DNA of 64,000 bases. Origin: Desulfurivibrio dismutans. Its GTDB lineage: Bacteria; Desulfobacterota; Desulfobulbia; Desulfobulbales; Desulfurivibrionaceae. Position 1 is the stretch's first letter. Each line of letters begins with the position of its first letter. This document shows, piece after piece, positions 3,444 through 64,000 of the stretch. The stretch is taken from positions 1 through 64,000 of the forward strand of contig NZ_JARGDQ010000002.1 of the NCBI RefSeq assembly GCF_029210385.1, given 5' to 3'. The translations under genes were made by a program, and so were the position numbers. A model generated the notes under the pieces. The model did no database searches. It worked only from the letters and a program-made list of their open reading frames with translations, and had not been told where the DNA came from.

Positions 3444-3719
3444 ATCTCCTCCCTAACGCTATTGTTTTTTATGGGACACCGAGGCCACTTTCACAGCCCC
3501 AGTCCATCCACTATGGTTGCAACGGTCTCCCAGGCCCACCTTCTTGGCGGGCATGGCGCCGCATACCCAACCGCCTCCCTCAACCGGACAGAAACTCTGA
3601 CCGGACTTCAAATTATTGGTAATTCTAGCCTCCCGTCCCGCTTACTGCAAGCAATAAATTGGTCATCATCACCTATTTCCTGCACAGATATTCAACCATT
3701 GTCGCTTGGGGAAGGACAG

Positions 3720-4883
3720 CTACCAGACAGGCTTACTGGCCGCATGAGGGTCATGGCAGCCCATACAGGCATTTTCGGAAGCAGGATTCACCGGCCAGCC
3801 TCCACGCGCCCCATCCTTGGTGGCAAAATGGGTATCCCAGATCACCCAGGCCGACGGCACCGGTAAACCGGCGTCGTCAAGCGCGCCATGGAATGGAATC
3901 TTCTCGGTGTCAAGATAGTAGACAAAGACTTGCTCGGCGGCACTATACTCAGCCTTGAGAAAGACCTGATGGCATGCGGTACAAAGATTGAACAGACGGG
4001 AATATTTAGTTATCTCTTTACCATCTTTTTGCACCACCGTCGGTGACGCGCGCAACTCGCCGGTATGGCCGTCGTGGCAGGTCCGACACTGTATCGGCGA
4101 GGGGTCTGCAATGGCACCAGCACCGGGCAAAAACTCCGTCAGCTCCTCGCCATCCATCCCGACCGTCTGGCCGGCGTAGGCACGAAACCCTTCGTCGCTA
4201 TGACAGCGCTGGCAAAGCGCGCCAATCTTGTTGACTTGGCCGGCATGGGCGCTTCCTCGATACGTATCCAGAATATCATCGGCATAATAGCCGGTGAAAC
4301 TCCCCTGGCCGGCGTAGGCGCTGTGCCCGGCCGGCAAGGCTTGGTGGCATTGGCCGCAGGCCTGGTAATCCGGGGTCGGGTTGGGGTGTTCCGGGAAATT
4401 AAGCCAGTGCAGGGTGCCGGCGCCGTGGCAGGCCTCGCAGCCCACGGCGGTCATGCCGGCCGGGGGCTGCTGGTGGTCGGTAAACCAGGGGCCCAGGTTG
4501 AGGCCGTCGCCGATGGGATCGTGGCAGGCCAGGCATTGCTGGTCGGCATCGGCCCCGATGGTGCCGGGGGTGGCGTGGCGGGAAGCCAGGTAGGTGGCGG
4601 CGGGATCGGTGTTGGTCACCTTGCCGGGGTTTTCATGGCAGGAGAGGCAGCGGTCGGCGCCCACATAGCGGGCGCCTTCGGCATCGGTGCCGTAAAGCGG
4701 GTCAAGAATATTGTCCGCCGCCGGGTCGGCATCGCTGCTGCAGGCGGTGAACAGCAGCAGGGTGAAGATCGCCAGCAGCAGGGCCAGGTTTTGGCCGAGC
4801 TGCAGCAGCCGGCCGGTTGGGGGAGAGAAATTATCGTTGATCCGGTTCATCTTGATTCGGTCGGTTCCAGGTTTGGTGTTCAT
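3720..4883 (-). CDS. Octahaem c-type cytochrome lipoprotein
   Basis: From the ATG at 4883 the product has about 387 residues with a hydrophobic segment and a lipobox (LLLFTAC), then eight CXXCH motifs: CLSCH, CLACH, CEACH, CGQCH, CQRCH, CRTCH, CTACH and CMGCH. An internal ATG at 4850 also leaves a full signal peptide. The start codon follows the stop of the upstream decahaem gene by four bases, so the two are translationally linked. The pattern is that of periplasmic or outer-membrane multihaem electron carriers; no catalytic haem site of a known reductase is evident. The open frame continues upstream of 4883, but only as a shadow of the neighbour. Confidence 0.82.
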   Translation of the reverse strand: MNTKPGTDRIKMNRINDNFSPPTGRLLQLGQNLALLLAIFTLLLFTACSSDADPAADNILDPLYGTDAEGARYVGADRCLSCHENPGKVTNTDPAATYLASRHATPGTIGADADQQCLACHDPIGDGLNLGPWFTDHQQPPAGMTAVGCEACHGAGTLHWLNFPEHPNPTPDYQACGQCHQALPAGHSAYAGQGSFTGYYADDILDTYRGSAHAGQVNKIGALCQRCHSDEGFRAYAGQTVGMDGEELTEFLPGAGAIADPSPIQCRTCHDGHTGELRASPTVVQKDGKEITKYSRLFNLCTACHQVFLKAEYSAAEQVFVYYLDTEKIPFHGALDDAGLPVPSAWVIWDTHFATKDGARGGWPVNPASENACMGCHDPHAASKPVW

Positions 4884-4887
4884 GGTT

Positions 4888-5799
4888 TCAGTGGCAGCGC
4901 CCGCAGGTGGCCCCACCGGAGGCCTTGCGCAGGCGGTCGGCCCGGGTGGAGGACCAGTCGGAGCCGTGGGGACTGATGCCGCCGGGGCCGGACTTGGCGC
5001 TGTGGCATTGCATACAGGTGTCACCGCCGGGGTGGCAGGCCTGGCAGGTCTGCAGGTTGCGGCGGGCCTCGCGGGCGTGGTCCTGGCCCCAGGAATGCAT
5101 GCTGGGGGCCACGGTGTCGGAACGGTGGCAGTCATCGCAGCGCGCCAGGGCGCCGGGGCCACGGAAATCTTCATGGATGGCGGCGATATCGCCGTCCATG
5201 CCCAAATCGAAAGTGCGGCGGTGGGACGGGCTGCCGGGCCGGAGATCGCCCCGGCGGCGGAAATCGCTGTGGCATTCGTTGCACGAGGCCGGCTCATGGC
5301 AACTGGCGCAGAGCCGGGGGTTGGTGCGGGCGGCAAGAGGATGACTGACCCGGAAATCGCTGCGGTGGACGTTGAGCAACGAGCCGCCGAACTTGCCCAT
5401 CTCCTGGGCCGGACCCTGGGCGTGGCAGTTGAGACAGTAGTTCTGCTGATGGCAACCGGCGCAGTCCAGTTGGCGGTTTTTGGCCAGCGGCCCGTGGTTG
5501 AAACCCCACAGCGGGCCGTGGGTGTTGACCATGCCGGGAAACTTGACCATTTCGGTAAACTCCTGGTCGTGGCACTGCAGGCAGGCCCGCCGCTCCGGGG
5601 TAATGGTGGGGGTATCCGGCAAATGGCAGGTAATGCAGGGCGAGCCGGGAAAGACCAGGTAGCGGTGCTGCTCGTGGTCGAAGGTAAACTGGTAGTCCTG
5701 CTGGGCGGCGACCGGCGACGGCCCGGCGACGGTGAAAATCAGCAGCCAGCCGCACACGGCCGGCAGACAAGCGCTGAATATGATTTTTAAGCTCGGCAT
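4888..5799 (-). CDS. Secreted decahaem c-type cytochrome
   Basis: This 303-residue protein has a signal peptide (hydrophobic stretch ending PVAAQ) and ten CXXCH motifs: CITCH, CLQCH, CAGCH, CLNCH, CASCH, CNECH, CDDCH, CQACH, CMQCH and CGRCH at the very C-terminus. There is no lipobox, so a soluble periplasmic or barrel-inserted carrier is likely. It lies between the beta-barrel gene and the octahaem gene; in MtrABC- and OmbB/OmaB/OmcB-type conduits a periplasmic multihaem protein plugs the barrel, which is the role I infer here. Confidence 0.85.
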   Translation of the reverse strand: MPSLKIIFSACLPAVCGWLLIFTVAGPSPVAAQQDYQFTFDHEQHRYLVFPGSPCITCHLPDTPTITPERRACLQCHDQEFTEMVKFPGMVNTHGPLWGFNHGPLAKNRQLDCAGCHQQNYCLNCHAQGPAQEMGKFGGSLLNVHRSDFRVSHPLAARTNPRLCASCHEPASCNECHSDFRRRGDLRPGSPSHRRTFDLGMDGDIAAIHEDFRGPGALARCDDCHRSDTVAPSMHSWGQDHAREARRNLQTCQACHPGGDTCMQCHSAKSGPGGISPHGSDWSSTRADRLRKASGGATCGRCH

Positions 5800-5811
5800 G
5801 GTTCTTTTCTA

Positions 5812-7209
5812 TCAGAAGTTCAGGTTCAAGCGCAAGGTGGCGCGGTTATGGTAGCCCCAGTAGCCGCTGCTCTGGGCCCGTTCCAGGCGGGCCTGGAGAT
5901 CGAGATCGCTGGTCAGCCGGGCGGTTAGATCGGCCCAGAAGCGGGAACTTAAGGTGTCGTCTTCAAACTCGTCCAGGCGGCGTTCCAGCACGTCCAACTC
6001 GGTGCCGATGCCGCCCTGGACGTGGGGGGTGAAGAGCCAGGCAACCCGGGCCCGGACCCCCTTCATGTCCTGGCCTGAGTCGCCGGCGTAGCGCCAGACG
6101 CCGCTTAGGTGACCGGAAAAGCGGTTGATCCGCACCTGTTCCAGGCCGGCTTCAAAAACATCGGCGTCCCGGTAGTCTTCATAAATCTCCCGGCTGTAGC
6201 GGATAAAGCTGCGCCGGCCCTGGCCGTGGTAGTAATTGAGTTCCGCCATGGCCTCCCGGTACTTGCTGACCGCAAAGACCGAATAGATGGAGGTGGCGGA
6301 GAATACCGGCAACGAATAAAGATATTCGGTGCGCAGGCCCCAGCGGTCGCTGCGGTGGTAATTGGAGCCGATCAGGCCGTAGCTGACCCGGTCGCCCAGG
6401 TAATCGTACTGGATCTCGCCGTAAAGGTTGAGCAGCTGGCGAAAGCCGTAGTCGAAATCGGCCCCGATGAGCTCGGTGGCCTTGTCGGAATCCTCCCGGC
6501 GCTGCACATAGGAAAGCCCGGCCACCAGGGTGTCGTCGTTAAAGCGGCCCCGCACCTCGCCGCCCATCAGGGTATCCTTGGCGGAATAACTGGTGTAGAA
6601 GGCCACGTCGCCGCCGCCGAAAAGGCTGAAAGTAAAGGGCGAAAGCGCCCCGCCGGGGCGAAAGTCCAGGGTCAGGCCATCAAGCAGCGAAGCGCCGGCG
6701 GTGACCGCGATGAACTGGCGGCCCAGGCGAAAGTCGATTTTGTCGAAAAGGTCTTCCTGCTGGTAATAGGCGTAATAGAGGCGACTGTCGGCCCAGTCGT
6801 CCTCGTTGCGAAGGTCGGTGCCAAGCCGGCCGTAGGCGTAAACGGCGTATTTCTCTTCCACTTCCTCGTCAAAGTGGCGCAGGTTGAGCTGCAGGTACTG
6901 AAAGAGCGGGGCCGAATCGGAACGGCGGGATTCGGTGCGGTACTGGATCTCACTGGAGGCCCGACCGCTGATCTCCACCCCGGGGGTGGATTCTTCGATG
7001 TATATCGGCGTCAAGGCCGGATCGCCGACCGCCGTAGTCGCCAAAGGCAGCGTCTGGGCGGCCAGGGGGGCGGCGACGAGGCCAAGAAGCAACGGAACCG
7101 CCAGGAGGAGCGGGAGAAAAAAGGGGACCGATTGATTTTTTGCCTTTTTTGCCGGGGGAAAAAAACAAATCGGTCCCCATTTTTCCCTCGGCCGAGTTGC
7201 TGAAGCCAT
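5812..7209 (-). CDS. Outer-membrane beta-barrel, putative porin of the cytochrome conduit
   Basis: A 465-residue protein with a hydrophobic signal core (PLLLAVPLLLGLVAAPLAA) and a long run of alternating strands ending LRLNLNF, with a terminal aromatic residue as in outer-membrane barrels. I see no CXXCH motif. Its position directly before the decahaem gene suggests the sheath of a porin-cytochrome complex. The N-terminal 25 or so residues before the hydrophobic core are encoded by an inverted repeat (7123-7178), giving an unusually long n-region. No alternative ATG lies after the repeat, so 7209 is kept. Confidence 0.75.
   Translation of the reverse strand: MASATRPREKWGPICFFPPAKKAKNQSVPFFLPLLLAVPLLLGLVAAPLAAQTLPLATTAVGDPALTPIYIEESTPGVEISGRASSEIQYRTESRRSDSAPLFQYLQLNLRHFDEEVEEKYAVYAYGRLGTDLRNEDDWADSRLYYAYYQQEDLFDKIDFRLGRQFIAVTAGASLLDGLTLDFRPGGALSPFTFSLFGGGDVAFYTSYSAKDTLMGGEVRGRFNDDTLVAGLSYVQRREDSDKATELIGADFDYGFRQLLNLYGEIQYDYLGDRVSYGLIGSNYHRSDRWGLRTEYLYSLPVFSATSIYSVFAVSKYREAMAELNYYHGQGRRSFIRYSREIYEDYRDADVFEAGLEQVRINRFSGHLSGVWRYAGDSGQDMKGVRARVAWLFTPHVQGGIGTELDVLERRLDEFEDDTLSSRFWADLTARLTSDLDLQARLERAQSSGYWGYHNRATLRLNLNF
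7123..7178. repeat. GGGGACCGATT inverted repeat inside a signal-peptide coding region
   Basis: GGGGACCGATT (7123-7133) and AATCGGTCCCC (7168-7178) form an 11-bp perfect stem with a 34-base loop. The arms resemble the GGGGACAGATT repeats at 392 and 46485, which look like the arms of REP-type elements. Here the element is part of the 5' coding end of the barrel gene. Confidence 0.8.
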
Positions 7210-7232
7210 GAAATCTTGTCGCTTGGTTAAAG

Positions 7233-7763
7233 TTAAGGTTGCACGGGGCGCAGGTGACCGCGCAATTCGCCCGGCACATGGTGGCGGGTGTGGACGTCGG
7301 CGAAAATCATGCCTTCCTCGATGGCCGCCACCAGGGCCGCCAGCTCGTGGCCGGCCAGGGGGCCCTGCAGGTCCTCAGCCCGGATTTCGCCCTGGGCCAG
7401 CACCCCGTCGAAACGGCCCTCCACCACCTCCCGGCGTTTGCCGTCTTCGGGGAAGAGCCAGACCACGATGGGGCCGTAGCGGTCTTCCGGGCCGCCGTAC
7501 TGGAGGTGCGACATGAAGGCGTCCTGCAGGTTTTCCACCTCCAGCTTGTAGGCCAGCACCAGGCCGTCGGCACTGAGTTCCATGGTCAGCCGACCGCCGG
7601 CATGGGTTTCCACCGGCCGCACACCCATGGCATCCGGCTGCAGTTCGGCGATAAAGAGTGGGCCGGCGGCGGCGGGCTTACCGGCCGCCGCCACCAGAGC
7701 GCCGCCGATCCCCAGGGCCAGCAGGAAGGCGAGAAAAGAGAAAAAACGGTACTTGTTCATCAT
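7233..7763 (-). CDS. CHRD-domain secreted protein
   Basis: The 176-residue product has an N-terminal signal peptide (FFSFLAFLLALGIGGALVAAA) followed by one CHRD-like domain: FIAELQPDAMGV near the start, a central LVLAYKLEVENL, then a C-terminal FADVHTRHHVPGELRGHL. CHRD domains occur in secreted and surface bacterial proteins; their biochemical role is not settled. Here it lies within the cytochrome operon, between the barrel and a thioredoxin-TPR protein, so it may be a periplasmic or surface accessory of the conduit. That is inference. Confidence 0.75.
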   Translation of the reverse strand: MMNKYRFFSFLAFLLALGIGGALVAAAGKPAAAGPLFIAELQPDAMGVRPVETHAGGRLTMELSADGLVLAYKLEVENLQDAFMSHLQYGGPEDRYGPIVVWLFPEDGKRREVVEGRFDGVLAQGEIRAEDLQGPLAGHELAALVAAIEEGMIFADVHTRHHVPGELRGHLRPVQP

Positions 7764-11763: not shown

Positions 11764-12303
11764 TCAACTTGCCTCGACGTCACGAATTAAAGTCAGGCGG
11801 GCGTTGACCCGAGCCGCCTGCCCGCCCCGGGCCGGCTCCACCACCACCTCCACCACTTCAATGCCGTGCCGGCCGCTCAGGCGGTCCAGCCAGCGCAGCA
11901 GGTCGTCGAAAACGGCGTCTTCCAGCCAGACCCGGACCTCGCCGCCGTCGCCGGGCTCCACCCGCTGCATGGCCCGGCCCAGGCCGTACTCCCGGGCGCT
12001 GCTGTCGATGGCCGCCAAAGGCGAGCCGGCGGCGCGGCCACCGTCGTCGGCGGTGATGGCGTAACGCCGAACCTCTTGGGCCGCCTCCCGCATCCAGGCC
12101 AGTTCCTGCTCCCGGGTGGCGATTTCCCGCTGCAGCGTATCACGGGAAGAGCTCAGTGGCGCCAGCAGCAGCAGCCAGACCAGTAACGGTACCAGCAGGC
12201 CCAGACCGATAAACAGCAGCGGTCGCTGCCGGGGCGGCACGTCGGCCAGCAGACTTTCCAGGCGGGCCTCCAGTTGGGCGCGGATTTCTTGCAGTTTGCT
12301 CAT
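11764..12303 (-). CDS. gspM: Type II secretion inner-membrane protein GspM
   Basis: A 179-residue bitopic protein with a short cytoplasmic stretch, one membrane helix (LLFIGLGLLVPLLVWLLLLA), a coiled-coil-like segment and a small ferredoxin-like periplasmic domain ending in a GIEVVEVVVEPA region. It overlaps the end of gspL by four bases. GspM stabilises GspL in the inner-membrane assembly platform. Confidence 0.8.
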   Translation of the reverse strand: MSKLQEIRAQLEARLESLLADVPPRQRPLLFIGLGLLVPLLVWLLLLAPLSSSRDTLQREIATREQELAWMREAAQEVRRYAITADDGGRAAGSPLAAIDSSAREYGLGRAMQRVEPGDGGEVRVWLEDAVFDDLLRWLDRLSGRHGIEVVEVVVEPARGGQAARVNARLTLIRDVEAS

Positions 12304-53465: not shown

Positions 53466-54251
53466 ATGACTTCGCGGATCCTTGCCCTTTCCCTGCTCTT
53501 TTTGCTCGCTTCCGCCACCATGGCCTGGGCCATGCCGGTGGCGGAGATTGTCGAGCGGGCCAACCTGGCCTCCTACTACGCCGGCGACGACGGCCGCTCC
53601 GAGGTGCGGATGACCATCACCGACGCCCAGGGCCGGGAGCGCCAGCGGCAGTTCGTGATTCTACGGCTCAACCTGGAAGAGGGCGGCCGCCAGCTCTACT
53701 ACGTCTATTTCGAACGGCCCGCCGATGTCCGCCGCATGGTCTTCATGGTTCACAAATACCTGGAACGGGAAGATGACCGCTGGCTCTTTCTGCCCGATCT
53801 CGACCTGGTGCGCCGCATCGCCGCCGCCGACAAGCGCAGCAGTTTCGTCGGCTCCCACTTCCTCTATGAAGACGTCTCCGGTCGGGCCCCCACCGAAGAC
53901 CGGCACGAGTTGGCGGAAGAAACCGCCGTGCATTATGTGCTGGACGTCACCCCCCGGGAACCGGAGACGGTGGAGTTCTCCCGCTACCGGGTGTGGATCG
54001 ACAAGGAAAATTTCCTGCCGGTAAAGGCGGAATATTACGACCGCGGCGACAACCACTACCGGACGGTGGAGGCCCTGGAGATCGAAGAGATCGACGGTTT
54101 TCCCACCGTGGTCAAGTCCCGGGTAATGGATCTGGAAGGCGGCGGCGAGACGGTGATGGAATTTGCCAGCGTACGCTACGATATCGGGCTGGACCAATCC
54201 CTGTTCACCGAACGCTACCTGCGCCGCCCACCGCGCGAGGTGCGCCGGTAA
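53466..54251 (+). CDS. LolA-like outer-membrane lipoprotein-sorting protein
   Basis: The 261-residue product has a signal peptide (ILALSLLFLLASATMAWA) and the LolA/LppX-like fold: VRMTITDAQGRERQRQF, RMVFMVHKYLEREDDRWLFL, FVGSHFLYEDVSGR and RYRVWIDKENFLPVKAEYYD. These periplasmic proteins bind lipid in a half-barrel and often pair with an MMPL exporter, as here. It starts three bases after the exporter stop. Confidence 0.87.
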   Translation: MTSRILALSLLFLLASATMAWAMPVAEIVERANLASYYAGDDGRSEVRMTITDAQGRERQRQFVILRLNLEEGGRQLYYVYFERPADVRRMVFMVHKYLEREDDRWLFLPDLDLVRRIAAADKRSSFVGSHFLYEDVSGRAPTEDRHELAEETAVHYVLDVTPREPETVEFSRYRVWIDKENFLPVKAEYYDRGDNHYRTVEALEIEEIDGFPTVVKSRVMDLEGGGETVMEFASVRYDIGLDQSLFTERYLRRPPREVRR

Positions 54252-54290
54252 ACGTCCAGCAGCACCGCATCTTCGGGCGATCACGGGGCG
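54252..54290 (+). repeat. Palindromic repeat, copy 3 (half element)
   Basis: ACGTCCAGCAGCACCGCAT and CTTCGGGCGATCACGG match the left arm of copy 2, but the right arm is missing. It begins at the stop of the LolA-like gene and continues into a second inverted element. Confidence 0.7.
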
Positions 54291-54326
54291 CCTCAGGGCA
54301 AGGGGCAAGCCGGGTGAAACATGGAC

Positions 54327-54457
54327 GGGGGGCGCGGAAACCGGTAGCGGCGGGTTTGTCGGCGGCCGGGCGCATGGACGCGCAGGAGGACGCCGACACC
54401 TCGGAGGCGGGCAGGAGGCCCGCCGAGAATGAGCCGCTGCCGGTTTCCGCGCCCCCC
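54327..54457. repeat. 131-bp element with 25-bp inverted ends
   Basis: GGGGGGCGCGGAAACCGG and its continuation TAGCGGC (54327-54351) are matched by the inverted sequence at 54433-54457 with one mismatch. The 81-base middle has no credible frame. It resembles a small MITE-like or palindromic unit lying in the gap between the LolA-like and barrel genes. Confidence 0.75.
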
Positions 54458-54537
54458 ACCCCCTGGCCACAACCAAGTTCTTGGGAGCTTGCCGGCTGGC
54501 CATCGGCCCTGGTTAACACTGAACTATTGGAAAAATT

Positions 54538-55827
54538 ATGACTCGTCTGTTTAAACATATGCTGCCGGCGGCTTTGACCGCCCTGTTGCTGCTGCCGCTG
54601 CCGGCGGATGCCGAAATTGCCGGGGTGCAGGATTATTTTTATGACCGCTTTGAGGTGGACCTGCACGGTTTTACCGAGGGCCGGGGCGGGCTGCGGCTGG
54701 ACCGGGAAGAAGATCAGCGGGACGCCTCCATCGGGGAAGCGCGGCTGCAGTTGGATTTCAGCCGCTGGCTGGGCGACGGCGAGCTGCGGTTGAAAACCGA
54801 CCTGCTGGCCGACGGGGTGGAGGAAGAGCTGAAGCTGGAGCTGCGGGAGGCCAACTATGCCTTCTCACCCCATCCCGACCTCGATATCCGCCTGGGTCGC
54901 CAGGTGCTGACCTGGGGCACCGGCGATTTGCTCTTCATCAACGATGTCTTTGCCAAGGACTGGGAGTCATTTTTCATCGGCCGCGACGACGAATACCTGA
55001 AAAAGGCCGCCGATGCTGTGCGGCTGGGGGTGTTTGCCGGGCCGGTCAATCTGGACCTGGTCTATGTGCCGCTGGTCACCCACTCCACCTACATCGACGG
55101 CTCCCGGCTTTCGTACTGGCATGGCGGGCGGCAGCAGATCGTCGGCCGCGACGAGATCGCCCGCGACAAAAGCCGCAACCGGGTCTTCCGGGACAGCGAA
55201 TACGCCCTGCGCCTGTATCGCCAGCAGGCCGGCACCGAGTACGCCCTGTACGGCTACTACGGTTTCTGGAGCACCCCGGAAGGGATGCAGCAAAGCTCCG
55301 GCCGCCTGATCTATCCCCGGCTGGCGGTCTACGGGGCCAGTGTCCGCCGGCCGTTGCTGGGCGGCATCAGCAACCTGGAGGTGGGTTATTACCACTCGCT
55401 GGATGACTCTTCCGGCCGCGATCCCCTGGTGCGCAACAGCGAATGGCGGCTGCTGGTCGGCCACGACCGGGAACTGGCCCGCGACCTCACCGCCGGGATC
55501 CAGTACTACCTGGAGCGCAAGGTGCAGTACAACAATTACCTGGCCTCCCTGCCCCCCGGCGCCCCGGCGGCGGACCGCAACCGCCACCTGCTGACCCTGC
55601 GCCTGACCCGGCTGCTGCTGCAGCAGAACCTGACCCTGTCGCTGTTTGTCTACTGGTCACCGTCGGACCAGGACGGCCACCTGCGCCCCAAGGCCAATTA
55701 CAAGATCAGCGACCAGTTGGCGGTGGAGGTTGGCGCCAACCTGTTCCGCGGCAGCCGTGACCATACCTTCTGGGGACAGTTTGAGGACAACAGCAACGTC
55801 TACTTAGGCCTGCGCCGCACTTTCTAA
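54538..55827 (+). CDS. Outer-membrane beta-barrel protein (DUF1302/alginate-export-like)
   Basis: The 429-residue product has a signal peptide (LPAALTALLLLPLPADA) and a barrel-type pattern: LHGFTEGRGGLRLDREE, the turn motif LDIRLGRQVLTWGTGDLLFINDVF, many alternating strands and a final FEDNSNVYLGLRRTF with terminal Phe. The GRQVLTWG motif is shared by DUF1302-type porins, often found with RND/LolA-like pairs. It follows a 286-base gap filled by repeat elements. Confidence 0.8.
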   Translation: MTRLFKHMLPAALTALLLLPLPADAEIAGVQDYFYDRFEVDLHGFTEGRGGLRLDREEDQRDASIGEARLQLDFSRWLGDGELRLKTDLLADGVEEELKLELREANYAFSPHPDLDIRLGRQVLTWGTGDLLFINDVFAKDWESFFIGRDDEYLKKAADAVRLGVFAGPVNLDLVYVPLVTHSTYIDGSRLSYWHGGRQQIVGRDEIARDKSRNRVFRDSEYALRLYRQQAGTEYALYGYYGFWSTPEGMQQSSGRLIYPRLAVYGASVRRPLLGGISNLEVGYYHSLDDSSGRDPLVRNSEWRLLVGHDRELARDLTAGIQYYLERKVQYNNYLASLPPGAPAADRNRHLLTLRLTRLLLQQNLTLSLFVYWSPSDQDGHLRPKANYKISDQLAVEVGANLFRGSRDHTFWGQFEDNSNVYLGLRRTF

Positions 55828-55851
55828 TCTTTACAAACGGAGACCAACCAC

Positions 55852-56049
55852 ATGATTGTCAACGACTGGATTCACGTCTTTGCCGGCACCTTTATCTTGG
55901 TCGGCCTGGCCCTGGGCACCTGGGTACACCCCTACTGGTATTTCCTGCCCGCCTTTGTCGGCGCCAACCTCTTTCAGTACGGCTTCAGCAAATTCTGCCC
56001 CCTGGGAATCATCCTCAAAAAACTGGGCGTACCGGAAAACCGAAGCTGA
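55852..56049 (+). CDS. DUF2892 (YgaP transmembrane-like) protein
   Basis: The 65-residue product has two hydrophobic helices (IHVFAGTFILVGLALGTWV and YWYFLPAFVGANLFQYGFS) and the FCPLGIILKKLG end typical of the DUF2892 family, which is fused to a rhodanese in YgaP. Here it is a separate gene in the rhodanese operon. The single Cys in KFCPLG is conserved in the family. Confidence 0.87.
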   Translation: MIVNDWIHVFAGTFILVGLALGTWVHPYWYFLPAFVGANLFQYGFSKFCPLGIILKKLGVPENRS

Positions 56050-56099
56050 CAGCCAAGTAAGCTGGCCAGTTGTAAATGATTACGCCCCCTCTGGGGTAA

Positions 56100-57494
56100 G
56101 TGCTCACAGGTACCGAAGGTTGCGGCAAGCGAGACGGCGATGCGTACCTTAACGTGAGGCCGGCTCGATCGCCGCAAGACGCGGTGTCCTGTGAGCGTTT
56201 ACGACCAGTTTCCCATATCTTCTTGCTGCACTCTCGCCCGGAACGGAACAACCGCTCTTCTTCCGCCACTCAATGTCTTAAACGGCTCCCAAACAAAGCA
56301 GAAAAAAGGGAGCTTTTTCTTCGCAATCTGCGGCTGGTCAACGAGCGGGCCGGGGTGGAGCCGGAAGTGATCGACCTGCTGGAAGCCTTCGCCCGGCTGG
56401 AGCTTGACCGAGGACGGCCGCCCAACCTGGCGCCGGCCCGGCCGCCCAATCCAGCCAAAAAGGTTCGCCTGTTCCTCGCCGCCAATAACCACCTCCCCGC
56501 CCCGGCCCTTGACTTTCTGGCCGCCTATTGTCAGCGAATTTACGAACAGGGTGTGGTTTGCCTCCTGAATCCCGCCCATCTGGCCCAAACCGTTTCCTTG
56601 CCCTTGAACCGGTTGCAGCATCTGGCGGCCACCGCCGAGCGCCATTACTTTTCGTACCCGATCCCCAAAAGTGACGGCAGCACCCGCCTGATCCACGCTC
56701 CTCGACCTGAATTGAAAAAGGCGCAACGGGGCGTTCTCGATGAAATTCTCGCTTTTGTGCCCCTCAACCCCCACGCCGAGGGCTTTCGCCGCCGCCGCTC
56801 CATCGTCACCAACAGCCGGCGGCATGTGGCAAACCGGGTGGTTGTCAAGTTGGACATTGAGGATTTTTTCCCCAGCATCACCGCCCAGCGAATTTTCGGG
56901 GTGTTTACCGGCCTGGGCTATCCCCGACAGGTAGCCGAACTGCTGACCGGCCTGACCACCCGCCGGGGAGTCTTACCCACCGGCGCGCCTACCAGCCCCT
57001 TTCTTTCCAACCTGGTCTGTCGCCGCCTGGACCGGCGGCTGGCGGGAGTCGGGGAGAAGATGGACTACGAGTATTCGCGATATGCCGATGACCTTACCTT
57101 TTCCAGTCAAAACAGAAACATGACCCAACTGCTGCCTTTTCTGCAGGAGATTATCCGGGAGGAGGGCTTTGCCGTCAAGACTGCCAAAACCCGCATCCAG
57201 AGAAACGGCGGCCAGCAAAAGGTCACCGGGATCGTGGTTAATTCCCGGCCCAATATCGCCCGCCGGGAAATCCGCAACCTCCGAGCGATAATTCATAACT
57301 GCCGCCGGCAGGGAGAGCTGCAATTGCAGGCATACAGATACGCCGCCGCCCGGGGAGCGGCCCGGCCGGAACAATACACCATCGACGCCCTCCAGGCTTC
57401 TCTGCGGGGCAAAATCAATCTGGTGCGGCAGGTCAACCCGGAAATCGGAGAGCGCCTGTTGCGGGATTTTCTGACGATCAGCTTTCATGGTTGA
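56100..57494 (+). CDS. Retron-type reverse transcriptase (long, myxobacterial type)
   Basis: The open frame begins at a GTG at 56100; a TTG at 56223 or a GTG at 56355 would also fit, since 56103-56195 may be non-coding. The product has up to 464 residues with an N-terminal part of about 200 residues. RT motifs in order: IHAPRPELKKAQRGVLDEIL, NPHAEGFRRRRSIVTNSRRH (retron X region), VKLDIEDFFPSI, GAPTSPFLSNLVCRRLD, YADD near residue 328, EEGFAV and the retron VTGIVVN. This resembles RTs of Mx162-type retrons. No maturase domain is present. The stop overlaps the next gene by eight bases. Confidence 0.87.
   Translation: MLTGTEGCGKRDGDAYLNVRPARSPQDAVSCERLRPVSHIFLLHSRPERNNRSSSATQCLKRLPNKAEKRELFLRNLRLVNERAGVEPEVIDLLEAFARLELDRGRPPNLAPARPPNPAKKVRLFLAANNHLPAPALDFLAAYCQRIYEQGVVCLLNPAHLAQTVSLPLNRLQHLAATAERHYFSYPIPKSDGSTRLIHAPRPELKKAQRGVLDEILAFVPLNPHAEGFRRRRSIVTNSRRHVANRVVVKLDIEDFFPSITAQRIFGVFTGLGYPRQVAELLTGLTTRRGVLPTGAPTSPFLSNLVCRRLDRRLAGVGEKMDYEYSRYADDLTFSSQNRNMTQLLPFLQEIIREEGFAVKTAKTRIQRNGGQQKVTGIVVNSRPNIARREIRNLRAIIHNCRRQGELQLQAYRYAAARGAARPEQYTIDALQASLRGKINLVRQVNPEIGERLLRDFLTISFHG
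56103..56195 (+). repeat. Palindromic repeat, copy 4, upstream of the RT; possible msr-msd region
   Basis: CTCACAGG (56103-56110) pairs with CCTGTGAG (56188-56195) and TTGCGGC/GCCGCAA form inner arms. Reverse-complemented, it follows copies 1 and 2 (CTTGCGGCGATC, CCGGC, GTACGC, CTTGCCGCAA) with many changes. Outside it CTGG...GTAAA (56071-56086) and TTTACGACCAG (56198-56208) may form a further pair. Retron msr-msd genes lie at this place upstream of the RT, so a non-coding role is possible. Confidence 0.5.
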
Positions 57495-58308
57495 AACGAA
57501 CACCACCAAATTTTCCCGGTTCCTGCTTTGGCAGATACTGTTTGGAGCAGTATTGCTTTTTCTGCTGCCACCGGCCTCCTGGGGGGCAACCGGGATCATT
57601 GTCGCCCGGACCGATGCCTTCGAAAGCATCAGGAGCCTGATGAGCAATACCTCGACCCTGACCAGGGCCGGCAGAGAGTATGTCACCGGTCGCCATGCGG
57701 GCCGGGATTTGGTCCTGGTGCGCTCGCCCATGGGCAAGGTCAACAACACCATCACCACCCAGATCCTGTTATCCGAATTCGAGGTTGACCTGGTGATCTC
57801 CATCGCGCCGGCGGGGGCAGTAGATCAAAACCTGAAAATCGGCGACATGGTTCTGGCCGACCGGGTTTACCAGCATGATTTCGGCACCATCAAACCTTAT
57901 GGCTTCATCTGGGGCAGAACGCCGGACGGCACCGGCTGGGAAGATGAGGGGTACAATGCCCATCCGGAAACCGCCGCCATGGAACAGGCCTGGAGGAGAT
58001 CTAAACCGGCCGGGCAGAAAGGATGGAAACTGGTCATTGGCCCCGTGGTCAGCGGTGATCAGATGATCGCCGACGAAGAAAAGCGTGACTGGTTGCGGAG
58101 CAAATTTCAGGCGGTGGCCGTTGATATGAGCGGGGCTGCCATCATCCAGACCTGTTTCGCCAATGGAGTGCGCGGCCAGATTGTCCGGATCATCACCGAC
58201 CAGGCCGATATCGCCGCCCGCAGCGATTTCGAGGCCTCTTTCGGTCCGGACAATTACGAACCTGACTACCGGCTGCTTATCAAAATTCTCCTCGACGCCG
58301 CCCCCTGA
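57487..58308 (+). CDS. Exported nucleoside phosphorylase/nucleosidase-fold protein
   Basis: The 273-residue product has an N-terminal signal sequence (FLLWQILFGAVLLFLLPPASWG) and then the PNP/UDP phosphorylase fold: MGKVNNTITTQILL, APAGAVDQNLKIGDMVLADRV, AVDMSGAAIIQTCFANGV and VRIITDQAD. Compared with MTA/SAH nucleosidase, the catalytic Asp (ITDQAD) is kept, but the VEMEAA motif reads VDMSGA and the N-terminal Glu of AMEEE is not obvious. It may be an altered or inactive enzyme. The start lies inside the end of the RT gene. Confidence 0.78.
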   Translation: MVETNTTKFSRFLLWQILFGAVLLFLLPPASWGATGIIVARTDAFESIRSLMSNTSTLTRAGREYVTGRHAGRDLVLVRSPMGKVNNTITTQILLSEFEVDLVISIAPAGAVDQNLKIGDMVLADRVYQHDFGTIKPYGFIWGRTPDGTGWEDEGYNAHPETAAMEQAWRRSKPAGQKGWKLVIGPVVSGDQMIADEEKRDWLRSKFQAVAVDMSGAAIIQTCFANGVRGQIVRIITDQADIAARSDFEASFGPDNYEPDYRLLIKILLDAAP

Positions 58309-58342
58309 GCGCAATCATAAAGTTACCCCGAAGAGACCCGCC

Positions 58343-60037
58343 ATGCAGAAAAAAATTTTAATCTTCTCGATCACCTGGTTGCTGCTGTTGTCGGCCCTGC
58401 CGGCTGCTACCCAGGCCGCGGATCGTTATTACCTGCTCGTTCAGGCCCGAGCCGCTCTTTCCCTGGGAGAGCAGGGGACCGCCATCGAGAAATACACGGA
58501 ATACATCGCCGCCCACCCGGCGATCACCGGCCGCAAAACCGCATCGTTTCGCAGAAATTCGCAATACTACCTGCGCAACCTGCTCATTGCCTACGGCGGC
58601 CTGATCGAGCAGCAGCAAGCCTTGGGACTATACGAACAAGCACGGCAGAATCTGGATCGTCTGCAGCAGGTTCGGCAGGATAATCAGTTCGGATCCAAAA
58701 ACCTTTACAACCTGGCCAAAATATATCGTGACCATGGCCGCACCCGGGAAGCGCACGCCGCCCTGCTGACCATTGTTGCCGACCAGCAGCGGGCTCCCCA
58801 AAAAACCAACAACAAGGTATTTGTCCGGGCCAGCGCCGAACTGGCGGAAATTCACCGGGAAGAAGACGACCAGCAAGCCCTTGCCGCAGTGCTTGACGCC
58901 GCCGTCAACGGCATTGAACTGTTTGGGCTCGATCTGAAGGATCGTTACCGGATAGGCCGATTGCTGCTGGATAATGGTGATCGTCCCAAGGGCGAAAAGA
59001 TTCTGCGCGACATGATCGAATCCATGACCCTGGATGATCTGGCCGCCGAGGAACACGCCCTGATCCGCGCTGTTTCAGCGTTATTGCGGCTCAGGGCGGC
59101 CGACAAGGAGACCACCGCCCAATTGCTTGCTGGTTTGGATCGCTTTGAGGGGGTTTATGAACTGGGCCTGCGCAATCAATATTCCCTGGCCATCGCCTGC
59201 CTCAACACCAGTCATCATCAAGCCCGTGGGATCCGGATGCTGGCCGAAATCAAAGATCGGTTCCCCGCCACCACCTATGCCCGCCGGGCGCTTTTCGTCC
59301 TGGGCCGTACAGCCGCAAGCGCTGAAGAGTGGGGCCAGGCCATGCACCATTACCAGGAATACATCGACCGCTACCCCGAACCGCGTTTTTTCTCATTGAA
59401 GGCGTATTCTCGCCTTATCGACAGCCAGTGGGCCAAACTCAAGGATCACGAGCTCATTCGGGCCGAATCCCGGCGCCTGGCCGATCTGGTCAACGATATC
59501 GCCGATTACGAAACCCAGTTGAACCTGGCCCGGGATCTCCGGGACAAGGGTTTCGATGAATTGGCGGCAGCCACCTTCAGTCTGGGGGAGGCCGCCGCCA
59601 GTGAGCAGTTGCGGCGGGAACAGCGGGCCGAAAAGCGGCTGCGAATCTTATGGAACCTGCAAAGATACGGCTATCCCTTGCAGCGATTTTCCCTGGTGGA
59701 GGAATCGGCCGCCGCGGCCCTGGAACTGATCGACGATCCCCGCAACACCTCTACGCGCGCCAAGGAAAGCACCAATTTTATCAAATCCCAGAGCCTGATC
59801 TGGCTGGGCCAGGCGCAACGGCGACAACAGCAACCTGATGCGGCCCGCAATGCTTTCGCGACTTTTCTCAGGGAGTTCCCCGACAGCCCGGACGCCGATT
59901 ATGTTCGTTTCAATCTGGCCGACATCCACGAAGAAGAAGGAGAAACTGCCTTGGCAGATGAACTCTACCGCCGAATTGAGACCGGAGTCTGGCGGGAGCG
60001 AGCGGAGCGCCGGCAACAGCGGGGGAACAGCCGATGA
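58343..60037 (+). CDS. Secreted TPR-repeat protein
   Basis: From the ATG at 58343 the product has 564 residues with a signal peptide (FSITWLLLLSALPAATQA) followed by repeated helical hairpins of TPR type: ALSLGEQGTAIEKYTEYIAAHP, AMHHYQEYIDRYPEP and QPDAARNAFATFLREFPDSPDADYVRFNLA. It resembles periplasmic scaffolds such as YbgF or BamD, but no family is certain. The stop overlaps the next gene by four bases. Confidence 0.75.
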   Translation: MQKKILIFSITWLLLLSALPAATQAADRYYLLVQARAALSLGEQGTAIEKYTEYIAAHPAITGRKTASFRRNSQYYLRNLLIAYGGLIEQQQALGLYEQARQNLDRLQQVRQDNQFGSKNLYNLAKIYRDHGRTREAHAALLTIVADQQRAPQKTNNKVFVRASAELAEIHREEDDQQALAAVLDAAVNGIELFGLDLKDRYRIGRLLLDNGDRPKGEKILRDMIESMTLDDLAAEEHALIRAVSALLRLRAADKETTAQLLAGLDRFEGVYELGLRNQYSLAIACLNTSHHQARGIRMLAEIKDRFPATTYARRALFVLGRTAASAEEWGQAMHHYQEYIDRYPEPRFFSLKAYSRLIDSQWAKLKDHELIRAESRRLADLVNDIADYETQLNLARDLRDKGFDELAAATFSLGEAAASEQLRREQRAEKRLRILWNLQRYGYPLQRFSLVEESAAAALELIDDPRNTSTRAKESTNFIKSQSLIWLGQAQRRQQQPDAARNAFATFLREFPDSPDADYVRFNLADIHEEEGETALADELYRRIETGVWRERAERRQQRGNSR

Positions 60038-61722
60038 AGTGGGCCAAATTTGCCCTGCAATTACTGCTTTTGCTGTTTCTTTTCGTTCCTGCCACCGCTG
60101 TCGCCTGGGAATGTTCGGCCTCCATCGCAGGACCGCATTGGGTAAAGATCGGGCGGACCATCACCTTAACGGCTGAAGGATTGCCGGCGGGTGGTTCTTA
60201 CAGCTGGTCCGCCACCCCGAATCTTTTTCCCCGTGGCTCCACGGCCACCCTGACCGGATATAAGCCCTCCACCTCCGATTACATCAGGGTGTCGATGCGC
60301 TACGCCACCCCCAAAGGCAACTCCTGCAGCGACACCAAGTGGATTTACGCCCACCCGGCCTGCGAAGTGCTGGTTTCCGGGCCGGGCCAGGCCGGGGTGG
60401 GGGAAGCGGTCAACCTGGGTGCCGCCGCCGATCCGTCTGATGGCGTTTTTGCCTGGAGGATCAGCTCGGGTAGCGGTAGCATTGCCGGTGATGGCCCCAA
60501 AGCAGTTTACATCGGCGATCAACCGGGGGAGGTGGAGATCGAGGTTGCCTACACCACCAGCGACGGGGCCGAAACTTGCAAGGGTTACCATCAACTCAGC
60601 ATTGTGGAGGAATGCTCATTGACCATTGACGGCCCCAGTGAGACCCCTTTGGGTGACACCATCGGCCTGCTGGCCACGGGAACTCCTGACGGCGGATCAT
60701 ACCAGTGGACGCCACTTACCGGCCTGACCCCAAGCGATGACCACCAAAGCGGAACGGCTTATTTCACCCCGGAAACCGCCGGGTTCCACGGGTTGCACTT
60801 GCAGTACACGACTACCAGCGGCGAGACGTGCCAGGACAGTTATCCGGTGGTGGCTTATAAACTGGAAAGCCTGACCCCCACAGCGGTCTGTTATGACTCC
60901 GGCACCACCCTCCAGCATTCTGATTTTGACCTTTTGACCATGCCGGCGGGCTATGAGAGCACGGTAACCTTTATCCCGGCAACGGTGACCACCTTATGGC
61001 GAACGGAGGAGGTAGAGGTAACCGGCTCGTGCAGCGACGGAGACAGCAACAATGCCGTTAGCACGGTTCTGGTGGTAAACAAGGACGTCAAACAAACGAC
61101 ATCAGTTGCCATCGAGATTCCGAACTATGTAAATGACGCCTTGGAGACAATCGGAGTCGGCGACGCCACCGACCTCAGGATGGCAACAGATTTCGAAAGA
61201 TACAGCGAATGCTGCTCCGGCACCAAAGTCGGCTCTTCCACCAGCGGGAGCGCGACAGCCGGGTTGCATATCGATGCCGGCCCGTTCACCATTGTCGGCA
61301 TACCCCTGCCGCCTAAGATCAAAGATTATGTCACTCTCGACGCCATGGCGGTAACGGTCACCGGCGGTACCGATGCAGAGATCAACGGCAATTACGATGC
61401 TTGTCAGGACTCCACCCAATGGAGCGGCTCCGGAGGTTTGGCGGCGACAATCGAAGTGGGTGGTGAGGTGAAAGCCCAAAGCCCTAATGAGGTTGTAGTT
61501 TTTAAAGGAAAACTTAGCGGAAAATCAGGCGTATCGCAAACACTAGAGGTTGAGTCGGCAGGTCTGCTTATTTCTGGTGAATGGTCTGGTTTAAATGTTT
61601 CCGGGACAATATCACTAAGATTGCGCCGAATGACTATAATTGAAGAATCTGTCCATAGATTCATGGTTGATAGAAAAGAGCTGTTGCCTGCTTATGTGTC
61701 ATTACCAGTTTTAAATGACTAA
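60034..61722 (+). CDS. Secreted protein with Ig/PKD-like repeats
   Basis: The 562-residue product has a signal peptide (LLLLLFLFVPATAVA) and at least three repeats of about 85 residues, each starting with a Cys (CSASIAGPHWVKIG, CEVLVSGPGQAGVGE, CSLTIDGPSETPLGD) and with a second Cys late in the repeat (GNSCSD, ETCKGY, ETCQDS); a disulfide per domain is likely. The repeats resemble bacterial Ig-like or PKD folds. The remaining half is unknown. Base composition falls from about 61490 on. The protein probably lies on the cell surface or in the periplasm. Confidence 0.7.
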   Translation: MKWAKFALQLLLLLFLFVPATAVAWECSASIAGPHWVKIGRTITLTAEGLPAGGSYSWSATPNLFPRGSTATLTGYKPSTSDYIRVSMRYATPKGNSCSDTKWIYAHPACEVLVSGPGQAGVGEAVNLGAAADPSDGVFAWRISSGSGSIAGDGPKAVYIGDQPGEVEIEVAYTTSDGAETCKGYHQLSIVEECSLTIDGPSETPLGDTIGLLATGTPDGGSYQWTPLTGLTPSDDHQSGTAYFTPETAGFHGLHLQYTTTSGETCQDSYPVVAYKLESLTPTAVCYDSGTTLQHSDFDLLTMPAGYESTVTFIPATVTTLWRTEEVEVTGSCSDGDSNNAVSTVLVVNKDVKQTTSVAIEIPNYVNDALETIGVGDATDLRMATDFERYSECCSGTKVGSSTSGSATAGLHIDAGPFTIVGIPLPPKIKDYVTLDAMAVTVTGGTDAEINGNYDACQDSTQWSGSGGLAATIEVGGEVKAQSPNEVVVFKGKLSGKSGVSQTLEVESAGLLISGEWSGLNVSGTISLRLRRMTIIEESVHRFMVDRKELLPAYVSLPVLND

Positions 61723-61738
61723 AATTTAGGAGATAAAA

Positions 61739-62539
61739 ATGGTAAAAAAAATTCTAATTTTATTTTTCGTATCATTGCATCCTATAGTATGTTATGCAAG
61801 CAATTATGATGACCCGATTAAGATAACCACCATAACAAGAACACAAGCCGATTACTTGTCGCCGGAAAATACTTTGTTTGCTGTACAGTCTTGTTTAGAG
61901 ACTCAAGATATGGATTGGTGTGACGAGCTTATGACCAATAAATCACTCGCTCGCGATATAAAACTTTTTCAGGAAGCAGGTATAGATCGTAGCGAAATGT
62001 TCCGGTTACAAAAAAGCGTTAAAGAATCATTTATAATTGACAAATTTGAATTCAAGGATGCTGTGGTTATTTTGGTTGAGGATCATGAACATAACGGCAG
62101 TGTTAATATCATACCGTCGACTTTTGTCAAAGAAGATGGATTATGGAGGTTAACAAATAAATATTCTGCCGACCAAGATCTCCATAAATATTTTTATTAT
62201 ATCCCCCCGCTTTTCTACGGCAAGGGGGGGCGCCCAACCGATGTGAACAAGTTTCTAGGCTACGCCCAGCCCACCGAGGCTCGAACCGAACTTGCTCCCG
62301 GAGCGAACAGCTATACTGTTCACGTTTATTATGGCCGAACTGTCGATCCGGCCACTTTTTCGGCGGAACTGAACCGGGAGGATATCAGCGCCCTGTTCTC
62401 TCCCGAGCCCTTCACCGACGAGGAGCTGGAAATTCCTCTCCAGCCGGGCCGCAACACCCTGGTGCTGTCCATCGAAGGGGGTCGCAATGATGGCAAAACG
62501 GCCCGGGATACCGATCGCCTGGTCTTTATCGTGCCGTGA
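61739..62539 (+). CDS. Secreted hypothetical protein, composite base composition
   Basis: The ATG follows TTAGGAG. The 266-residue product has a signal peptide (ILILFFVSLHPIVCYA). The first 160 residues are encoded by AT-rich DNA unlike the rest of the window; from about 62205 the DNA turns GC-rich again and the frame encodes a beta-rich domain (YTVHVYYGRTVDPATFSAEL, then GRNTLVLSIEGG). No family is recognised. It is last in the operon with the RT gene. Confidence 0.6.
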   Translation: MVKKILILFFVSLHPIVCYASNYDDPIKITTITRTQADYLSPENTLFAVQSCLETQDMDWCDELMTNKSLARDIKLFQEAGIDRSEMFRLQKSVKESFIIDKFEFKDAVVILVEDHEHNGSVNIIPSTFVKEDGLWRLTNKYSADQDLHKYFYYIPPLFYGKGGRPTDVNKFLGYAQPTEARTELAPGANSYTVHVYYGRTVDPATFSAELNREDISALFSPEPFTDEELEIPLQPGRNTLVLSIEGGRNDGKTARDTDRLVFIVP

Positions 62540-62582
62540 CACACGGAGATACTCTATATTGGGGTGGCTACGAAAGCCCCGG

Positions 62583-62653
62583 TTGGCGCAAAACTCTTAA
62601 TATGGTATGGTGCAAAAAACTTAACAAACCATATTAAGAGCTGGTGGCGCCAA
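62583..62653 (+). promoter_or_regulatory. Long inverted repeat over the fic start
   Basis: CTCTTAATATGGT (62594-62606) pairs perfectly with ACCATATTAAGAG (62628-62640), and TTGGCGC (62583-62589) with GCGCCAA (62647-62653). The right outer arm ends on the first base of the ATG at 62653. As DNA it could be an operator; as RNA it could hide the ribosome-binding site. Confidence 0.65.
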
Positions 62654-63600
62654 TGCCGTATTTGGACTCAAAAGCAACAAACCGTCTGGACGAGAAATTA
62701 TCCCTGTTGAATTCCTGTCGACCTTTCCCCGAGGCGGCGGTTAGAAAGCTTAAGGAGCAGTTCGGCTTGGAAATGACTTACAACTCCAACGCCATCGAGG
62801 GGAACAGCCTTACACTCAAGGAAACCTTTCTGGTCATAAGCGAAGGTCTGACCATCAAAGGTAAGCCACTCAAGGACCATCTTGAGGCGAAAAGTCACAC
62901 TGAAGCCCTGGAGTATTTATACGAATTAGTGGCCAAGGGCCGGGGCATCACGTTCTCGGAGCGCCTGATCAGGGAGTTCAATCAGATTGTGATGCGCGAT
63001 CTCGATAAAGAATGGTCCGGCCGGTACCGGAACAGCAACGTAATCATCGGCGGGGCCGATCATCAGCCGCCCGAAGCAATGGAGGTTCCCCGGTTGATGC
63101 GGGAACTGGTCGCTTGGGTACGGCGAAACAGGATGGTTCTGCACCCGGTTGAGCTGGCGGCCTTGTTGCACCACCGGCTTGCCCACATTCATCCTTTTTT
63201 TGACGGCAACGGCCGGACCTCCAGGCTGGTCATGAATGTTGTCTTGATGCAGGCCGGTTTTCCATTGGTGGTTATCCTGAAAACCGATCGAAAAAAATAC
63301 TACCGGACCCTGGCCGAGGCCGACCGGGATAATCATGGCCCCTTCGTACGCTTCATTGCCCAGGCGGTTTTTCGGTCACTCGATATCTATCTTAAAGTGC
63401 TCACCCCGGCCCGGAAGGCCGGGGAACGTTTCATCCCTTTAGCCGAGCTTGCCAAGCTCTCACCGTTTTCTCCCAAGTATCTCAATCTGTTGGCCCGCAC
63501 CGGCAAGCTTGAAGCCCATAAAGAGAGGCGCAACTGGTTGTCGTCGGAAGAGGCGCTCAAAAGGTATCTGGACAGCAGGGAGAGAAAGAGAAGAAGCTAA
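62653..63600 (+). CDS. Fic-domain protein with N-terminal inhibitory motif
   Basis: From the ATG at 62653 the product has 315 residues (a GTG lies nine bases upstream). The Fic core HPFFDGNGRTSR is at about residue 180, with the catalytic His. TYNSNAIEGNSL at about residue 45 is the (S/T)xxxE(G/N) inhibitory helix of class II Fic proteins. The C-terminal part contains a winged-helix-like LAELAKLSPFSPKYLNLLARTGKL. Fic enzymes transfer AMP or related groups to proteins. Confidence 0.93.
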   Translation: MPYLDSKATNRLDEKLSLLNSCRPFPEAAVRKLKEQFGLEMTYNSNAIEGNSLTLKETFLVISEGLTIKGKPLKDHLEAKSHTEALEYLYELVAKGRGITFSERLIREFNQIVMRDLDKEWSGRYRNSNVIIGGADHQPPEAMEVPRLMRELVAWVRRNRMVLHPVELAALLHHRLAHIHPFFDGNGRTSRLVMNVVLMQAGFPLVVILKTDRKKYYRTLAEADRDNHGPFVRFIAQAVFRSLDIYLKVLTPARKAGERFIPLAELAKLSPFSPKYLNLLARTGKLEAHKERRNWLSSEEALKRYLDSRERKRRS

Positions 63601-63687
63601 AGTTGCGCTCCGGGCTTCGGCGATTTGGCGGCAGCGACCAATCGGCAGGCTTGACGGTTACCGCCGGAACCGCTACGCTTAGTTGCC

Positions 63688-64000
63688 ATGGAGCCCAGAA
63701 TCTTCACCGCCAAATACCTGCTCAAGACCAACCCCTATTTCTTTGCGGTGCTCCGTGAGGCCCAGGATCTGGAAAGCGCGCGCGGGCGTTTGCTGCAACT
63801 GGTTGACCGGTGTGAAGCCCGCAGCGGCGGCAAAGAACTGGGGCAGGGGCAGGACGCCGGCATCCGGGCCCGCGTCCGCGACTGCGCTGGCGTCCTGCGT
63901 TCGATGATCAAACCGGACGCGGAGGAAGCGGCGGGATTCAGTGTGGCGCAAGCCCTGTGGGATATCGCCCGCCATCAGCCCCGGCCGGAACTGACCCCGG
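63688..64000 (+). CDS. Unknown protein, cut by window edge
   Basis: The ATG at 63688 opens a frame that runs to the end of the window (104 codons): MEPRIFTAKYLLKTNPYFFA, a helical stretch, then a Gly/Gln-rich turn and a second helical part. No family is recognised. A TTGACG/TACGCT pair at 63651-63679 with 17-bp spacing lies too close to the ATG to be the promoter unless the transcript is almost leaderless. Confidence 0.5.
   Translation, partial: MEPRIFTAKYLLKTNPYFFAVLREAQDLESARGRLLQLVDRCEARSGGKELGQGQDAGIRARVRDCAGVLRSMIKPDAEEAAGFSVAQALWDIARHQPRPELTP

Follow-up and report, generated by a model that had tools for sequence, protein, structure and literature searches.

A candidate horizontally acquired retron cassette, damaged at its 5' end, joins a reverse transcriptase to exported proteins in Desulfurivibrio dismutans

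The effector of retron II-A is a cytoplasmic NDT-like protein, and to our knowledge the known retron effectors reside in the cytoplasm or inner membrane, where they are directly controlled by the complex of reverse transcriptase (RT) and msDNA. Retrons have been sorted into 13 types according to effector and operon structure (PMC12548924), and the core hairpin of the II-A retron Ec86, with an 8-bp stem and a 3-nt loop, is required for RT binding (PMC6868368). A further RT class, UG4, has been reported beside fimbrial genes (PMC8934634). Here we describe a retron-type RT and its neighbours in a 64,000-nt stretch of the D. dismutans genome, referred to as the window (Table 1), together with related loci in other genomes.

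The cassette family shares features with each of these systems. With retron II-A it has in common the idea of a nucleoside-processing-type effector, an 8-bp/3-nt msr core and the nearest RT in the PDB, but the cassette carries a Sec-exported protein of the MTA/SAH nucleosidase (MTAN) fold together with exported TPR and Ig-like proteins. As in UG4, the RT adjoins genes for exported surface proteins; UG4, however, is a non-retron class, whereas the cassette RTs score as retron. The XIII/Mx162-like retrons resemble it in that RT_XIII is the best PADLOC model for five of the six cassette RTs, the ncRNA lies 5' of the RT, and VTG and YADD are present. In contrast, the III-A and 'other' models reach almost the same scores, III-A is the top model for the RT of G549, and the PADLOC models for retron accessory proteins match no exported partner, so that the type XIII definition of RT plus accessory proteins applies to the RT only. 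A literature search, with the main retron-type classification paper outside its scope, found no retron with these partners and nothing relevant on retrons linked to a phosphorylase or nucleosidase, to a signal peptide or to Desulfobacterota. We interpret the cassette as a new type of retron, all partners of which are predicted to leave the cytoplasm.

Table 1. Features of the cassette and its surroundings in the window
Feature	Coordinates	Strand	Evidence
Island: left-end repeat, RT-to-U266 operon, Fic gene	56054..63629	.	Empty site in two congeners, GC
Palindromic dispersed repeat, ~110 bp, at the expected ncRNA place	56093..56203	+	Genome copies, boundaries, ncRNA models
Retron-type reverse transcriptase, 5' end incomplete	56298..57494	+	Profiles, alignment, structure match
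Exported MTA/SAH-nucleosidase-fold protein	57487..58308	+	Pfam, profile alignment, signal peptide
Exported TPR protein, YbgF/BamD-type repeats	58343..60037	+	Pfam, homologues, signal peptide
Exported Ig-like repeat protein, family not assigned by Pfam	60034..61722	+	Homologues, signal peptide
Exported protein U266, last gene common to the cassette	61739..62539	+	Homologues

The window RT matched Pfam RVT_1 (2e-23), its top PADLOC model was retron RT_XIII (3.9e-100), with the 'other', outgroup and III-A retron models just below, and its nearest PDB entry was the Ec86 retron RT (9e-62). The alignment showed YADD and VTG, and a region X that reads NSRRH, a variant of the retron NAXXH. The first-pass annotation, made from the sequence of the window, had called a retron-type RT with X and VTG motifs, and this holds; its comparison with Mx162-type RTs holds only loosely, as XIII is the best PADLOC model with III-A and 'other' close behind. 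The RT unit had also been drawn from 56071, and here the annotation needed correction: 56071-56297 is not RT sequence, profile homology begins at 56298 (position 4 of 401), and the frame has no ATG, an upstream in-frame TTG or GTG being a possible start. Across the six cassette RTs, YADD is invariant, VTG is present in five and replaced by LTG in G549, and region X is an exact NAXXH in four, with NSRRH in the window and L003. The last two RTs diverge with dN/dS ~0.16, which indicates purifying selection, although dS is near saturation. Plasmid and phage records contained only distant RTs (at most 37% identity), and RT identity in viral contigs was only 32%. In G259, a related RT (41%; L036 6443-9488, minus strand) has a DNA methyltransferase-like gene downstream in place of the nucleosidase, and then another gene that contains a Cys cluster.

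The cassette is known from six loci, the window and five other Thermodesulfobacteriota genomes. The first-pass annotation had proposed a neighbourhood comparison of close RT homologues, and this returned the same nucleosidase and TPR neighbours: the relatives' RTs are 44-66% identical to the window RT, and all precede an exported nucleosidase and a TPR protein. The closest relative, L003 (Syntrophobacteraceae; class Syntrophobacteria), shares 66% identity in the RT, 58% in the nucleosidase and 56% in the TPR protein, and G030, G043, G152 and G549 share 44-47% in the RT and 37-46% in the nucleosidase. RT, nucleosidase and TPR genes occur at all six loci (the TPR gene of G043 lies across a contig break, on another contig piece) and the Ig-like gene at five; the cassettes of both G030 and G043 reach the end of a contig. 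Among 290 related genomes, the TPR family was found in four (G000, G030, G043, G152), the very ones with the RT and a close nucleosidase. The six RTs form a single clade (support 91/92), and the RT, nucleosidase and TPR trees all pair the window with L003 and place G549 beside them; G030 and G043 group together by RT and by TPR protein, and the nucleosidase tree is weakly resolved at this point. The window copy has its nearest relative in L003, from another class, whereas same-order genomes are only 44-47% identical; the cassette has therefore moved horizontally.

These data bear on one of the two readings first offered, namely the chance arrival, in this genome, of a retron ahead of an export operon unrelated to it. 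The window copy does lie on an island whose left edge carries a repeat, but the same gene order recurs in five further genomes, which span at least two classes, the trees largely agree and co-occurrence in 290 genomes is perfect; with neighbours shared by the close RT homologues, we discard chance landing as extremely improbable. Judged from these shared neighbours, the pairing of RT and nucleosidase is not accidental and their coupling is genuine. The intact order, as reconstructed across the loci, is a TAT-signal Cys-rich gene, msr-msd, RT, nucleosidase-fold protein, TPR protein, Ig-like protein and a further exported protein. Few defence genes were seen around the cassettes.

The island in the window is 7.6 kb long, and the same site is empty in two congeners. 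In G002, the sequence matching window 55824-56053 ends at 2402 and the match resumes at 2563 with window 63630; in G003, the match ends at 1738 and resumes at 1817. GC content is 55.8% in the island vs 63-65% in its flanks. A SoFic-like Fic-domain protein (PADLOC) is encoded inside the island at 62644-63600 and is absent from the other cassettes. Far from the island, a full-length Rfam match to the group II intron D1-D4-6 RNA lies at 593-817 on the minus strand.

We then considered the retron ncRNA, which was found directly 5' of the RT in all five relatives, with a length of ~129-137 nt. Its a1/a2 repeats pair over 12-16 bp, with 10 exactly matching bp in G549; a priming G is present, and a T-rich stretch ends in TAG. 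The msr contains a hairpin with an 8-bp stem and a 3-nt loop, conserved as ATRGYGNTACRCYAT, and a second hairpin forms the msd; with its 8-bp/3-nt msr, the RNA fits published retron anatomy including the Ec86 core (PMC6868368). In the alignment 89.7% of pair cells were paired and 13 of 30 pairs had changed on both sides, values reached by none of 500 shuffles. A model built without L003 recovered the L003 ncRNA at 4e-15, and one built without L035, the most divergent member, failed to recover that of L035. A TAT-signal Cys-rich gene lies upstream in four of the five relatives. Its stop falls inside a1 in L003, L025 and L026, where the ORF is small; the ORF is also present in L035 (tblastn 1.6e-7), and apparently only its C-terminus remains in L024.

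None of this was found in the window. The Rfam search of the window gave no retron ncRNA, the models built from the relatives' ncRNA matched nowhere in it, and there is no TAT-signal gene. A search of the whole D. dismutans genome for the ncRNA was also empty; it was run without a positive control and on its own shows little. The absence in the window is instead judged from L003, whose RT is 66% identical to that of the window and whose ncRNA is still detected when L003 is left out of the model. By these comparisons the window copy has lost the ncRNA and the TAT gene, and its production of msDNA by the usual route has probably ceased. As the RT is constrained and the protein genes are still open, either the ncRNA was lost recently or the proteins remain in use. 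The family has the shared neighbours and the upstream RNA whose joint absence the first-pass annotation had set against its proposal, and the window copy itself is without ncRNA.

At the expected place of the ncRNA the window has a hairpin with a very stable fold (-68.9 kcal/mol, z -6.7). The first-pass annotation had located the msDNA locus at 56050-56250, and we too accepted a 107-nt hairpin (56096-56202) as msr-msd before rejecting it. The hairpin is one copy of a dispersed repeat that is widespread in three genomes of the genus, with 40 or more sites in each: this one (G000), G001 and G002. Two congeners that carry it have no RT, and it was not found in G003 or G004. That the window copy is a working retron with this hairpin as its msr-msd would agree with the well-placed inverted repeat and the stability of the fold, yet the dispersed copies in RT-less congeners and the lack of any match to the relatives' ncRNA models make it very improbable. 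The msDNA locus was therefore wrongly placed in this copy, where a repeat occupies the site and no cognate ncRNA is left.

The gene after the RT was expected to encode a secreted phosphorylase-fold protein overlapped by the RT stop. Indeed, the RT stop (57494) overlaps the nucleosidase ATG (57487) by 8 nt, and the product matches Pfam PNP_UDP_1 of the phosphorylase superfamily (5e-37), is closest to MTA/SAH nucleosidase (8e-43) and has a signal peptide with n, h and c regions and a predicted cleavage site, PASWG|ATG. Cleavage there would give a mature protein that opens with the fold's first strand, which points to a true signal peptide rather than a membrane anchor. A viral copy of the nucleosidase was searched for and not found. 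Residues were read from a profile alignment with S. aureus MTAN and from the alignment of the six members; we take Glu12, Glu174 and Asp197 (E. coli numbering) to be the catalytic residues of MTA/SAH nucleosidase (Pfs/MTAN). The cassette proteins share with that enzyme the fold family, the catalytic Asp197 (kept in all six) and the SGDxFI motif, which takes variant forms in the window and G549. They differ in having a signal peptide and in the two glutamates: the ribose-binding Glu174 is Ser or Gly in 6/6 (Ser in the window), and the water-activating Glu12 is lost in five (Ala in the window) and kept only in G549. The complete Glu12/Glu174/Asp197 triad is therefore not a property of the cassette family. 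A stand-alone exported MTAN-like protein with no RT (L041 1399-2226, minus strand) keeps the EME motif, so the altered residues are a mark of the cassette family. Instead of working as an ordinary MTA/SAH nucleosidase, the cassette protein probably has altered chemistry or binds a ligand of the purine-nucleoside type.

Export signals were predicted for every partner protein at every locus, and the secreted TPR and Ig-like proteins annotated downstream in the window both have signal peptides, as had been claimed. The Ig-like protein gave no Pfam match; it is conserved in G030, G043 and G152, and in G549 its N-terminal part forms the start of an Rhs protein. U266 is shared by the window, G152 and G043, with a match in L026, a same-position ORF in G043 and a C-terminal fragment in L003. 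The terminal genes of the cassettes vary and look surface-like, with Ig-like proteins, an Rhs protein with a Tlde1-like end (G549) and LamG (G152). At L035, the Ig-like N-terminus is joined to the Rhs protein with the Tlde1-like end at 2935-7467, and a duplicated Rhs fragment lies upstream of the TAT gene at 11766-11991. At L026 (8485-11880), TPR and Ig-like parts lie in one frame with an internal signal peptide, and are either fused or separately started. An RT that adjoins exported Ig-like and surface proteins could suggest a diversity-generating retroelement mutating the Ig-like gene. This was rejected, and we regard it as close to impossible: no TR/VR pair of direct repeats of at least 45 nt was found in the window (54000-64000), L003 or L024, the RT scores as retron, and the relatives have a retron ncRNA.

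We favour the reading that the window holds a horizontally acquired, 5'-damaged retron cassette, and that in intact members RT-msDNA would control an envelope-side arm that most likely defends against phages. The sequences themselves show the gene set, its co-inheritance, the relatives' ncRNA and the export signals; from here we infer that the RT of intact members would make msDNA in the cytoplasm and that the RT-msDNA complex would control the effector arm through its synthesis, its retention before export or signalling. The site of action would be periplasmic or on the cell surface, and surface signalling or competition are less likely roles than phage defence. Against this reading stand the small number of loci (six), the scarcity of defence genes around them, with Fic confined to the window island, and the missing ncRNA of the window copy. 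The other reading first offered, an RT system acting at the envelope, thus gains from the shared neighbours a genuine coupling to exported genes, and an envelope-acting defence function would be the inferred part. A cytoplasmic RT-msDNA complex has no obvious hold on an exported protein, and the usual antitoxin logic of retrons is therefore not directly transferable. We propose, tentatively, that the whole effector arm is extracytoplasmic, with RT-msDNA controlling the altered nucleosidase and its periplasmic or surface partners in envelope-side immunity or signalling.

A rather unlikely alternative is a surface or signalling module without a defence role, serving extracellular nucleoside sensing, adhesion or inter-bacterial competition, in which the retron regulates expression or a DNA product. 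It would account for the export signals of all partners, for the surface-like terminal genes (Ig-like, Rhs/Tlde1-like, LamG) and for a nucleosidase with replaced catalytic Glu and retained SGDxFI and Asp197. However, retrons of known function are defence systems, and neither a regulatory element nor a hallmark of a known surface system was found.

If the extracytoplasmic arm proposed above is real, it would be the first case of envelope-side retron immunity or signalling, with an exported nucleosidase-fold effector arm. The intact members (G030, G043, G152 and L003) are compact enough for cloning and testing. Because every partner has an export signal, the logic of direct control by RT-msDNA is hard to apply, and the cassette reveals either a new, trans-envelope mode of retron action or a retron role outside defence.
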